A DNA stretch of 64,000 nt. It comes from Halichondria panicea. Lineage: Eukaryota; Porifera; Demospongiae; Suberitida; Halichondriidae. Where the stretch lies: positions 1,513,501-1,577,500 of the forward strand of contig NC_087377.1 in assembly GCF_963675165.1 (NCBI RefSeq), read 5' to 3'. The notes beneath the pieces are model-generated. The model ran no database searches. It was not told where the DNA came from and saw only the letters and a program-made list of their open reading frames with translations. This document shows, piece by piece, positions 21,422 through 30,012 of the stretch (positions are counted from its first letter, which is position 1; each line of letters begins with the position of its first letter). The position numbers and the translations under genes are program-made.

Positions 21422-21694
21422 TTACTTGAGGTTAGATAACTGACTTGTGTCCTCTTTGTAGAGAGCTGTGTAGAGAGTGAGGAGCACTTTCCCAGCAGCT
21501 GCATCCTTCACCTCACACTGGTAGTGACCAAAGTCTTCCTCTCTCACACTCTGGAAGCTCACAGTGTTGGGTTTGCTGAGAACAGGTGCTGTGTCATCAT
21601 CTCCCACTTTGCTCCAATCAAAGGAGAACTGATCGACAGACTTTCTAACAAACTTGAGCACACACAAGCTTGCCTTCTGACCAACACTTACAGT
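21422..21694 (-). CDS. Ig-like C-terminal exon (exon 11)
   Basis: The exon encodes ASLCVLKFVRK, a central W (FDWSKVG) and VREEDFGHYQCEV, i.e. the C...W...D-x-G-x-Y-x-C signature of an immunoglobulin-fold domain, then stops at 21422. There is no signal peptide or membrane segment in the gene, so this would be an intracellular Ig domain, as in titin-like proteins. Confidence 0.65.
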   Translation of the reverse strand, partial: TVSVGQKASLCVLKFVRKSVDQFSFDWSKVGDDDTAPVLSKPNTVSFQSVREEDFGHYQCEVKDAAAGKVLLTLYTALYKEDTSQLSNLK

Positions 21695-27600: not shown

Positions 27601-30012
27601 GGGGGTCTACAAAACACGTAATTGTACCACAACCATTTGTCCTACAAAAAAAACGAAGGTATCTATGAAACCGGCATGGCTTGCTCTATTGGTATATCAA
27701 ATTTAAGCTTCATACACCACTGCTTGTGGAAATTAGGTATAGGATTTCTAGTGACACATACCTGGTTCAGGAGTGGAGGGTGGTAGAGACCGGAGATAAT
27801 TAATAACTTCAGTGTACCTCCACTCTACTGCCAGGTCAAGAGGAGTCCTGCCATCATCATCAGTCACATCTGGACAGGTAAGGGACAGAGATCTTGTAGT
27901 AGTACTGACATCATTGACCATTACCATGCATGCACAATCAGCACAATCAGATACTTATCGAGTACAGGATGCCTATTATTATAATATTAGTATCGTGTAT
28001 GTATTGTATTACAGTTACCATAATTATAATTATGACTACATGATGATACATACAGGTACACTGATTAATTCACGGGTTGTTTACATTTCCAATCAGAGGA
28101 TCTAATGAAACGGTACCCACTACAAAAATGACTCACCAACATCAACCTTGAGTACCTCAACAAGGTATTTCACTACTTGTATACTTCCTCCCGCACAAGC
28201 ACTGTGCAGTGGTGTTCGGCCCAACTTGTCCCTCACATCTGTATGTGGTGATATAACCTCAGAGTAGTGATGACATGCACACACAATGACAACTCAACTA
28301 AAATGTATTATTGGTGTGTATAATTATAGTATTCAAAATAAAGTTAATTATGATAATAAATACACCATGCAGTAGCTTCTCCGTGCTGGTCAGTAATTAT
28401 CCCAGTTGGGTGAGATAATTATATTATTAGTGTGCGTGTACACAGTATCAAGGATTGTGGGAAATTAGAAATTACTTGAAAAAACATGTCTTATAATTAT
28501 TATTACAATCTACATGTACATCAACACATGCATGTTTTGTAATCTAGGAAATTAAACAGTCTATAAAAACATTCTTGTTGGGCTCAATCCTTTAGCTATG
28601 AACACTACGCGACTGACACACACTTACCAATACGGCATTTCAACTCTTGTGAGAGATACACCACAGTCTCCATATGTCCTCCCATACACGCATAGTGAAA
28701 TGCAGTCATGCCCAATCCTTCACTACCTTTCTCTATATCAGCTCCACCACTAACGAGTGCTCTAGTGATCTCCAGGTAGCCCCTCCAGCATGCATGGTGT
28801 ACTGGAGGGCGTCTATTCTTCTTAAACACATCACACCACTCCTCATTCCAGTAGAGCTGGTGATTGGGGTTGGCCCCCTGTTTCAAAACGGACCTCACTT
28901 TGCTGACATCCTCATTGTATACAGCCTCCCACAGATCCCTGGCCAGCTGCTCCTGAACACTGCATGTACAATAGTGTGTGCATGTGTGTGTGGGTATAGG
29001 TACATTTTGTAGGTAGGTGTGCGTGTGTGACATACAACAACAAATTGCTTACGTGGGTGTATCTGGCACAGTGTCCAGTCTCCTGTGTGATGTGTGTAGG
29101 TGTGTGTGTGTGTATGGTATGTGTGCATGTGTGTGTGGGTGTGTGTGTGTGTGGGACATGCAATTCAACAAATTGCTTACCTGGGTGTATCTGGCACAGT
29201 GTCCAGCCTCCTGTGTGCATGTGCGTGTGTGTGGGTGTGGGTGTGTCCATGTGTGTGTGTGTGTGTGTGTATGTGTGGGTGTATACAATGTACATTAATA
29301 AGCTCTTGTGAGCATTTATAAGCTCCACACTATAACAATCAGGTGGTGTCAATAAGGATTTAGTATAGAGGGGGAAATAAGGCGTGCTTTTGAAAAGTAA
29401 CCAGAACATTTTTCTGAAAAAGGTCAACTGTTATTTCAATTATAATGAAATAACCCATTTTTGGTTGCCTGAATTGCAAAATTGCAATTCAGGCAACCAA
29501 AAATGGGTTATTTCAACCCATTTGTTTTTACAGTGTATACCCTGTTTTAGTATGTAACACTGCCAGCTATGGTCACTCAGTCATACAACTATAGTACACC
29601 TGAATTTTAGGGGGGGGGGAATTGGAGCCAGAGGGAGGATATCCCTGTATGACACCCTGACAATGATTAGCTATAATATTTTTATAGCCTATTAAAACTG
29701 TACTTTGCTCACGTTCTCCTCTCTGCTGGGGTCTTGAAACCGAGTTTCTTGCGAATCCACGGCACTAACCTGATGTGTGTGTGTTAGGGGGTCAAGTTTG
29801 TGTACGGACAATAATAATAATTATTACAATCAAAGTACTTCTTGATGCATGGTGGTATATGAGCTAGAGTAACACAACATGCAGAGCTTCCATTGATGAG
29901 CTCCAATTCTGATGAGGTGATTCCACCTCTGACTAATTAAAGGAATGATCCTCCCTCCATGCAATCACAAGGTCTACATGTTCACTCACCCTGAGTCTTC
30001 TCCAGTAGCCAT
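21422..30012 (-). CDS. Ankyrin - death-fold-like - Roc-type GTPase - COR-like - Ig-like protein, 11 exons
   Basis: Exons on minus: 30012-29990, 28959-28628, 28238-28137, 27869-27762, 26510-26451, 25582-25517, 25404-25354, 24973-24812, 24283-23038, 22856-21944, 21694-21422. All junctions are GT-AG; the sum is 3336 nt, giving 1111 aa with a stop. The start MATGEDS comes from a 23-nt exon, matching the paralogue at 60.2 kb. Residues about 8-190 form ankyrin repeats (ACWRGYLEITRALVSGGADI; GRTPLHSACAGG). Three short Ser/Thr-rich linker exons follow, then a helical death-fold-like exon, a GTPase (P-loop GPPFVGKT at 334-341, DVGG at 494, THVDK at 598), a COR-like region and an Ig-like end. No kinase domain follows. 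Likely a cytoplasmic signalling or immune-type switch; the role is inferred. Linker exons 5 and 7 are paralogous to each other. Confidence 0.82.
21944..22856 (-). CDS. COR-like exon (exon 10 of the ankyrin-GTPase gene)
   Basis: Joins in frame after W at the end of the GTPase exon. It begins YLQKIGSILYYGNVPNDIDG and continues with LRILHSEGHVTEFERAELVK, which matches the helical start of COR regions that follow Roc GTPases. The distal half contains a Cys/His-bearing stretch (CPCSKDC, then NHLCALSSKSRIRFICEAS), perhaps a metal site. The acceptor is a CA repeat ending ACAG directly at the exon. Confidence 0.65.
22858..22901 (+). repeat. TG/CA microsatellite at a splice acceptor
   Basis: On the minus strand this is a (CA)n tract ending CACAG directly at exon 10 of the ankyrin-GTPase gene. 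A G-run follows. Confidence 0.85.
23038..24283 (-). CDS. Roc-type GTPase exon (exon 9 of the ankyrin-GTPase gene)
   Basis: This 1246-nt exon carries LLLVGPPFVGKTTTLGRLL (P-loop), NINDVGGQPAFLEMLP (a G3-like DxGG followed by Q, as in Roc and Rab/Ras switches) and LIGTHVDKLENP (a G4-type [NT]KxD variant with HVD). About 110 residues separate P-loop and DxGG, longer than in a minimal G domain. The extra part is a Lys/Glu/Ser/Pro-rich loop. The DxGGQ order and the COR-like exon that follows place it among Roco-type proteins rather than NACHT ATPases. Confidence 0.8.
25884..26205. mobile_element. Non-coding inverted-repeat element in an intron
   Basis: Ends pair TAACACCAAGAGTTCATTA...ACGCAACTCCA with TGGAGTTGCGTAATGAACTCTTGGTAACA. 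Interior segments AGGCAATGAATAACAG and TTATTCATTGCCTTTCCTAC also pair, one partner lying further out near 25715-25735. It sits between linker exons of the ankyrin-GTPase gene. Confidence 0.5.
26616..26768 (+). repeat. (GCAC)n/(CA)n microsatellite, about 150 bp
   Basis: About twelve GCAC repeats pass into a long (CA)n run. Reading frames across it are artefacts. Confidence 0.97.
26774..26886. repeat. Strong hairpin, about 113 bp
   Basis: CATGTGTAG...TAGCTGGATAGTAA, GGAGTG and TAGTGGCTT pair with AAGCCACTA, CACTCC, TTACTATCCAGCTA and CTACACATG with a GCAG loop. It directly follows the CA microsatellite. A second hairpin, CTGCTAGCAGGTCACTA/TAGTGACCTGCTAGCAG, is at 26945-26984. Confidence 0.8.
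27371..27570. mobile_element. TA-flanked MITE (CCGTATAGCGGG family), well preserved
   Basis: TACCATATAGCGGGTAATTT at the left and AAATTACCCGCTATACGGTA at the right, about 200 bp, each end beginning or ending at TA. The interior has TTTTCGTGAG and CACGAAAAT segments. No coding capacity. Confidence 0.8.
29037..29290. repeat. Tandem duplication with TG tracts before an ankyrin exon
   Basis: CAAATTGCTTAC(G/C)TGGGTGTATCTGGCACAGTGTCCAG occurs at about 29041 and 29171, each followed by a TGTGTG-rich stretch. It is intron 1 of the ankyrin-GTPase gene. Confidence 0.8.
29447..29514. repeat. Perfect palindrome, 33-bp arms, 2-bp loop
   Basis: Arms 29447-29479 and 29482-29514 are exact reverse complements around AA, starting GAAATAACCCATTTTTGGTT. 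The flanking sequence matches the region at 60.85-60.99 kb, where no such palindrome is present, so it is an insertion or expansion specific to this copy. Confidence 0.92.

Follow-up and report, generated by a model that had tools for sequence, protein, structure and literature searches.

A sponge gene joining ankyrin repeats, a Roc/COR-type GTPase and an Ig-like domain: candidate member of a diversified repertoire of intracellular receptors

Overview

A stretch of 64,000 nucleotides of the genome of the sponge Halichondria panicea (contig NC_087377.1, positions 1,513,501 to 1,577,500; referred to below as the window) contains, on its minus strand, a gene whose predicted product combines ankyrin repeats with a Roc/COR-type GTPase and an immunoglobulin (Ig)-like domain, a combination supported by the conservation of the domain order across a family of paralogues (57 best COR matches). 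It is probable (roughly 0.6) that this gene is a member of a large, germline-diversified paralogous repertoire of intracellular receptors, in which the ankyrin repeats would form the sensor, the Roc-COR module the switch and Death domains the output. The best reading of the sequence data is that the ankyrin repeats would carry a paratope like that of designed ankyrin repeat proteins (DARPins), and that the receptors would work in the manner of NLR proteins, built on a Roc-COR-type switch.

The window gene is real. Its 12 exons (Table 1) run from 30012 to 21422, comprise 3393 nt and form a single frame of 1130 amino acids, with GT-AG borders throughout and matching phases. A preliminary description, made from the sequence alone, had proposed 11 exons and 3336 nt; its exact closure, splice borders and phases hold, but it omitted the 57-nt exon 2, which is phase-neutral. 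A copy of this exon, 82-94% identical, was retrieved in three of nine paralogous loci (L numbers) or joined units; several of these nine stop short of the region, and the other six are weakly informative.

Table 1. Exons of the window gene, with the three exons proposed to extend it
Feature	Position	Strand	Description
Exon 1	29990..30012	-	Start codon, MATGEDSG; L039 and L053 share both the ATG and the donor
Exon 2	29713..29769	-	Phase 2 at both ends; copies in L039, L044+L053 and L046
Exon 3	28628..28959	-	Ankyrin repeats 1-3 (Pfam); target-facing positions hypervariable
Exon 4	28137..28238	-	Ankyrin repeat 4 (Pfam); hypervariable
Exon 5	27762..27869	-	Ankyrin repeat 5 (Pfam); hypervariable
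Exon 6	26451..26510	-	Ser/Thr-rich linker, phase 1 at both ends; copies in L039 and L044
Exon 7	25517..25582	-	Linker, phase 1 at both ends; copies in L039, L040 and L044-L046
Exon 8	25354..25404	-	Linker resembling exon 6
Exon 9	24812..24973	-	54 residues, conserved 5' of the GTPase in family loci; death fold unsupported
Exon 10	23038..24283	-	Roc-like GTPase (GPPFVGKT, DVGGQP, THVDK) and start of COR-A
Exon 11	21944..22856	-	Remaining COR-like region; Cys/His cluster at its end
Exon 12	21445..21694	-	Ig-like domain up to the phase-1 donor GTCAGT; earlier version runs to the stop at 21422
Exon 13 (proposed)	21055..21102	-	Thr-rich linker, phase 1 at both ends; AG/GT sites and frame
Exon 14 (proposed)	20606..20941	-	Death domain 1, phase 1 at both ends
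Exon 15 (proposed)	19599..20032	-	Death domain 2 (20032-19685) and stop

Hypervariable face of the ankyrin repeats

The ankyrin repeats display a site-restricted excess of amino acid change. Ankyrin exons were compared among 22 copies, namely the closest 22 of 110 listed (150 of 637 candidates scored), pooled regardless of the downstream GTPase type, and exon 3 is open in all of them. A set of repeat positions that we take from designed ankyrin proteins (2, 3, 5, 13, 14 and 33) was fixed beforehand. Mean entropy amounted to 2.18 bits at these positions (22 of 148 positions) versus 0.45 bits at the other assigned repeat positions, a contrast reached by none of 20,000 permutations. Similarly, the ratio of nonsynonymous to synonymous differences per site (pN/pS) was 2.18 at the preset positions versus 0.72 at all other codons of exons 3-5. 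A narrower set of 15 close copies omitted L044, L059, L060, L062, L063, L066 and L067, which have a higher intron divergence, L067 (0.030) and L044 (0.035) being borderline. Among these 15 copies, the six most variable of the 33 repeat positions were 3, 13, 5, 10, 2 and 14, and none of 32 slid position sets reached the difference observed with the preset one; position 33 was mildly variable (0.70 bits). PMC10484509 lists the variable positions 45, 46, 48, 56 and 57 plus equivalents, which convert to repeat positions 2, 3, 5, 13 and 14. The 25 target-facing residues form a distinct set in each of the 15 copies, with 18.0 residues differing per pair on average and 13 at the minimum. Tryptophan, arginine and glycine occupy 44, 48 and 34 of the 330 variable-site residues, respectively, frequencies suggestive of those of many binding faces.

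When the four close paralogues with a match were considered, the ratio of nonsynonymous to synonymous substitution rates (dN/dS) of the ankyrin exons exceeded 1 in 10 of the 11 defined comparisons (dS being 0 in the twelfth), and that of the GTPase and COR exons was 0.05-0.27 where defined. Likewise, among 13 copies each, the GTPase and COR exons had pN/pS values of 0.19 and 0.33, respectively, and the Ig exon, compared in 8 copies, had 0.53. The GTPase exon is thus under constraint.

The nucleotide diversity (pi) among the 15 close copies, which also underlie the following values, was 0.102, 0.131 and 0.158 in ankyrin exons 3, 4 and 5, versus 0.024 and 0.016 in the introns separating these exons. 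The binding codons, with position 10 counted among them, reached a pi of 0.489 at codon positions 1-2; framework fourfold sites (0.031) and two introns (0.023 and 0.012) served as neutral references, so that change at the binding codons amounts to about 16-40 times what these copies show at neutral sites. Neutral drift and relaxed constraint were both rejected as explanations of the variable codons, since change there is higher than in introns and at fourfold sites; relaxed constraint cannot exceed the neutral rate, and selection for difference, or directed copying under selection, is therefore needed. Across 21 paralogues, exons diverged more than introns in 20.

Several observations weigh against diversification as the explanation. 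Whole-exon pN/pS was 0.88 for exon 3 (bootstrap 0.63-1.30) and 0.84 for exon 4 (0.53-1.37; L060 left out), and the claim of diversification therefore rests on the site pattern; exon 5 gave 1.92 (1.08-3.66; 22-copy set, L059, L060 and L062 left out). Position 10 was added post hoc to the target-facing positions. Furthermore, pi at codon positions 1-2 of the framework was 0.076, above the introns (0.066 without the variable loop of exon 3), and in one of the 21 copies (L066) the introns diverged more than the exons.

It is improbable, although compatible with part of these data, that the window gene belongs to an ordinary expanded signalling family, whose ankyrin repeats bind differing host partners as a result of subfunctionalisation and have no non-self role. 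Ankyrin repeats are general protein binders, and divergence of the partners would likewise spare most of the framework; however, a change of the binding codons this far above the neutral level, sets of residues that differ among all 15 copies and segments that reassort freely are unusual for partner specialisation.

Reassortment of the segments is suggested by the pairwise distances, which show essentially no correlation among repeats 1-2, repeat 3, repeat 4, repeat 5 and two introns (absolute rho no higher than 0.22 in 15 pairs). In addition, a single codon per residue was used in 56 of 59 residue-by-site classes. Uncorrelated segments and single codons fit gene conversion or recombination of existing variants more than repeated new mutation, although the use of one codon per residue can possibly be explained by common descent as well. 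These same features, to which can be added the abrupt drop in diversity from the ankyrin exons to the intervening introns and the framework diversity above intron level, could also reflect hypermutation or gene conversion aimed at the ankyrin exons, not selection on rare point mutations alone; only three of the 59 classes contained more than one codon, as if codons were copied. Such a targeted process is nevertheless judged unlikely: the framework fourfold sites remain near the intron level, indicating that the exon as a whole is not hypermutated, and identity by descent would yield one codon per residue too.

Ankyrin, GTPase, COR-like and Ig-like domains

Ankyrin repeats are certain in the predicted protein (Pfam Ank_2, E 5e-25). 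The three GTPase motifs of exon 10, already noted in the preliminary description, are present, and the key residues of the P-loop (GKT), D-x-G-G-Q and T-x-x-D are invariant in an alignment of 13 relatives. Assignment to Roc is more remote. Indeed, the window copy matches Pfam Roc at E 0.025, and 12 of the 13 relatives match with a best value of 4.2e-4, under the cut-off (L048 at 0.084 and L043 without a match). A profile of the GTPase family found LRRK2 Roc chains as its best hit in the PDB (E 0.007 for the whole chain, no single stretch being significant), with the P-loop, switch II and GTHxD aligned in order. For scale, this genome also encodes an LRRK-like protein, whose match to LRRK2 reaches 3e-66, and the family of the window GTPase is therefore a remote Roc at best. 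Profile comparison with this LRRK-like protein aligned the P-loop alone and did not confirm Roc-COR by this route.

For the COR-like region, Pfam COR-A matched six of ten relatives (best 1.7e-6, under the cut-off) and COR-B one of ten (E 0.21); exon 11 alone gave no Pfam match, and no COR domain was matched in the PDB. That Death (see below), Roc and COR-A all stay under the Pfam cut-offs and that COR-B is essentially undetected counts against the proposed receptor architecture. The Roc/COR GTPase of the preliminary description thus stands as regards its intact motifs and a family-wide domain order, whereas the Roc and COR-A profile matches are remote and COR-B is barely seen; membership of a Roco-like family is suggested with that qualification. 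Neither NACHT nor NB-ARC was among the Pfam matches listed for the 13 relatives (E up to 1), where weak AAA-type matches alone occurred, and the 1130-amino-acid model gave no kinase match in Pfam (E up to 1). The COR-like region closes with a cluster C-x-C-x2-H...C...C, invariant in the 13-sequence and 10-sequence alignments of relatives, which may be a zinc site; by eye, the window copy has Cys at the place of His.

Exon 12 is supported as an Ig fold by family comparison. Pfam Ig_3 matches 13 of 15 family copies (best 4.7e-7), the window copy alone staying under the Pfam cut-offs (Ig_2, 4.4e-4), and the best PDB hit of the family profile is a multi-Ig chain, with a whole-chain E of 1.7e-8 that sums several weak matches (best single match 0.77). 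The Trp and the F-strand motif D-x-x-x-Y-x-C are invariant in the 15 copies. At the B-strand place, four of the 15 copies, the window copy included, have Cys and the other 11 have G, E or D; the canonical disulfide is therefore not general, and this variable place would fit a cytosolic Ig domain. The death-fold-like exon of the preliminary description, exon 9, is not supported as such: a profile of the Death exons of this genome gave 1.7 bits for the window copy, 4.8 bits for the best of 25 family copies and 4.2 bits for the best of 200 shuffled sequences, and these scores do not set the exon apart from shuffles.

C-terminal end and downstream Death exons

The preliminary description placed the Ig-like domain at the end of the protein. 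The fold itself is supported, but its terminal position is doubtful, since in-phase Death exons lie beyond it on the same strand. A phase-1 donor (ACAA followed by GTCAGT, cut at 21445/21444) is present in the Ig exon about 20 nt 5' of the stop at 21422, and a Thr-rich exon and two Death exons lie downstream, all phase 1 to phase 1. Spliced accordingly, the model comprises 15 exons and a frame of 1395 amino acids with a stop at 19599; the likely order of the protein would be ankyrin, Roc, COR, Ig, Death and Death, with the Death exons presumably spliced onto the window gene and the Ig domain probably internal. All six aligned Death sequences are recognised by Pfam Death, with a best value of 1.4e-5 and, for the window copy, one of 0.0097 (under the cut-off), and the Death profile retrieved the CRADD Death domain in the PDB (E 9e-4). 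At least 38 of the 57 best COR loci have a same-strand Death exon in the 4 kb downstream, at least two have one upstream on the same strand, and none was found on the opposite strand at the places compared; this count and that of the neighbouring ankyrin exons given below are lower bounds (100 of 115 and 70 of 150 places of the Death searches and 106 of 110 ankyrin places used).

A protein that ends after the Ig domain at 21422, the Death exons belonging to other genes, has a low probability, comparable with that of a targeted process. It can account for the in-frame stop behind the Ig exon in the window, L044+L053, L046 and L022/L040, and Death exons occur elsewhere in the array too, for instance at 35167-35484. 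Moreover, the GTCAGT hexamer is absent in L022/L040 and L026, L022 having GTGAGC at the donor place and keeping the stop, and a downstream Death exon was found, among the places used, for at least 38 of the 57 loci but not for all; the stop at 21422 could be a real alternative end. Against this, among seven loci or joined units inspected closely, the GTCAGT donor is kept in all seven, and the SNLK-stop in three (window, L044+L053 and L046) and absent in four, an eighth unit (L051+L042) being unmatched by the pattern. A first donor scan, with a pattern that did not cover the C8 type, found GTCAGT in 15 of 18 rows, corresponding to 13 of 15 distinct loci. The frequency with which same-strand Death exons follow the family loci, and their phase in the window, likewise favour the extended protein.

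The Death exon at 35167-35484 (minus strand), upstream of the window gene, was considered as its N-terminal part and rejected. Together with its flank, this exon matches, at about 92%, the second of the Death exons lying downstream in the L039 unit, and it therefore resembles the tail end of a duplicated unit.

Paralogous family and exchange of exon blocks

The genome contains at least 125 matches to the GTPase exon (100 of 282 candidates scored) and at least 130 to the COR exon (130 of 230 scored). Among the matches listed, 12 further GTPase exons are 90-99% identical to the window copy, all on contig C1. An Ig exon lies within 2.5 kb downstream of 60 of the 130 COR matches (57 best and three partial ones), and of none of the 54 next-best COR matches (41-47% identical); conversely, a COR exon lies directly upstream of 58 of 67 Ig matches. 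The Ig domain therefore marks one subfamily and is hardly found outside it. Ankyrin exons occur within 13 kb upstream of at least 35 of the 57 best COR loci and downstream of at least 11 (tandem neighbours), and on the opposite strand at none of the places compared.

Paralogues exchange exon blocks. Indeed, when the window gene is compared with its copies, DNA identity shifts abruptly at the borders of exon blocks. L044 is 91-92% identical to the window gene over 29649-24699, whereas pieces of its GTPase and COR exons reach 67-84% (54-60% at the protein level) and its Ig region 84%; L039 is 94% identical up to the end of exon 11, after which the Ig exon follows at 67%; and L048 combines a non-Ig GTPase type with ankyrin exons like those of the window gene (64-71% of the residues of exons 4 and 5 being identical). 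Large parts of 18870-36810 recur, at about 72-99% identity, at C1:1801414-1819411 and C1:2212314-2227313, and this region may be regarded as a segmental duplication unit. A prokaryotic or viral origin was dismissed: one scan each of genome contigs and viral contigs, with two short peptide patterns per scan, yielded 33 and 19 candidates, respectively, of which none was confirmed, and the GTPase exon matched nothing in PADLOC.

A non-Ig member on contig C3 (L043:4680-9318) has a long S/T/K/D-rich repeat inside its GTPase open reading frame and a Death exon about 0.8 kb 5' of that frame. Death-domain exons are numerous in the genome.

Proposed mechanism and comparison with known systems

The ankyrin repeats would be the sensor, the target-facing positions 2, 3, 5, 10, 13 and 14 differing strongly between copies and the rest much less. 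Binding of a target, either a molecule of a microbe or of another individual, to the ankyrin face may toggle the Roc-COR-type GTPase switch. In known Roco proteins, Roc-COR is a dimerising module. The Ig-like domain may contribute to assembly of the complex, and the Death domains at the C-terminus would draw in Death adaptors, leading to a death or inflammatory signal. Diversity would arise from tandem duplication, exchange of blocks between paralogues, reassorted ankyrin segments and strong selection for difference. We infer from these sequence features the binding of non-self by the ankyrin repeats, the control of signalling by GTP and cell death as the outcome. The innate immune or cell-death switch suggested in the preliminary description thereby gains indirect support from the hypervariable ankyrin binding positions. 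Among the NLR-like traits, the diversified sensor is seen, the motifs of the switch are present, and the Death domains are in phase and presumably spliced on. The proposed likeness concerns the mode of action only; the window family has no listed NACHT or NB-ARC domain and hence is not an NLR family.

A more specific proposal, which we advance tentatively and as somewhat less probable than its negation, is that the sponge holds a germline library of 'natural DARPins': dozens of genes, many of them in tandem, whose paratope codons, about 25 per gene, would be reshuffled by gene conversion below the exon scale under selection for difference, with readout through Roc-COR and Death. If true, an animal would recognise non-self without NLR, TLR or Ig variable domains for specificity, and evolution would share its variable positions with the randomised designed ankyrin binders of engineers. 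The mapped hypervariable binding face would make the receptor family directly testable, and animals may employ Roc-COR switches as immune receptors, an idea already put forward for brown algae. Such a family could bear on how sponges discriminate intracellularly between microbes, symbionts and other sponges. Among the open-licence PubMed Central titles and abstracts listed, none was found on an ankyrin-Roc-COR-Ig-Death architecture or on hypervariable ankyrin sites in sponges. The family would represent diversified Roc-COR or NLR-like receptors whose specificity, in an animal, is borne by ankyrin repeats.

DAPK1 has the domain order ankyrin repeats, Roc, COR and Death domain. The extended window model would have these four in the same order; unlike DAPK1, a kinase, the 1130-amino-acid window model gave no kinase match, and the family would have Ig between COR and Death and occurs in many diversified copies. 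The preliminary description had seen an Ig-like end in place of a kinase: an Ig-like domain is present and a kinase match is not, but as Death exons follow, the layout appears to resemble a kinase-less DAPK1 more than a replacement of kinase by Ig. DAPK1 is named as a human ROCO protein (PMC11378527) and DAP kinase is given as an example of the AP-GTPases (PMC8195603).

The brown algal ROCO genes (LRR-ROC-COR, with leucine-rich repeats) shuffle their LRR exons under diversifying selection and have been proposed as immune receptors (PMC11378527). They share with the window family an expanded family of Roc-COR type, the shuffling of repeat exons and diversifying selection, but they have LRR instead of ankyrin repeats, a simple LRR-ROC-COR layout and a non-animal host, and their copies within one species are described there as mostly dispersed rather than tandem. 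In fungal NLRs, the positively selected positions of the ankyrin repeats lie, save for one exception, on the concave binding surface (PMC4986451). The likeness to the window family lies in the selected ankyrin positions, in domain swapping and, as proposed for the window family, in a tie to nonself recognition. They differ in having a NACHT or NB-ARC ATPase and changes of repeat number within a gene, where the window family has a Roc-COR-type GTPase and few repeats in separate exons.

Among animals, Amphimedon possesses a huge expansion of Death/TRADD-N proteins joined to ankyrin and other partners, read as counter-invader proteins (Kaur et al. 2021, PMC8195603, in part). This is likewise a very large sponge family in which Death-like domains meet ankyrin repeats; it is built on TRADD-N, however, and a Roc-COR-Ig core and hypervariable ankyrin sites are not described in the sections at hand. 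Novel immune genes of actiniarians combine Roc/COR with Death or TIR (PMC5094078, in part). Their combinations involve LRR/TIR or kinase/Death/TIR, and the available portion reports neither ankyrin-Roc-COR-Ig-Death nor diversification at the level of sites.

Other features of the window

Upstream of the window gene, a minisatellite (36077-36810) consists of a short repeated peptide-like unit and has many overlapping matches in the L039 unit. The open reading frames 31894-32238 and 63256-63618 (minus strand) share one stretch, which we take to be reminiscent of NAK/AAK1-type kinases; Pfam found nothing in 31894-32238. A second ankyrin gene (56404-60036, minus strand) contains an exon about 51% like exon 3 of the window gene, and no family GTPase exon lies beside it within the window, among the matches listed. 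On the plus strand, 46238-48838 may be a receptor gene, with an SRCR-like exon (by eye) followed by an open reading frame that contains a hydrophobic stretch and whose tail is repetitive and rich in Pro/Gln. In the genome as a whole, SRCR matches at E 1e-10 number at least 121, with 150 of 1364 candidates scored.

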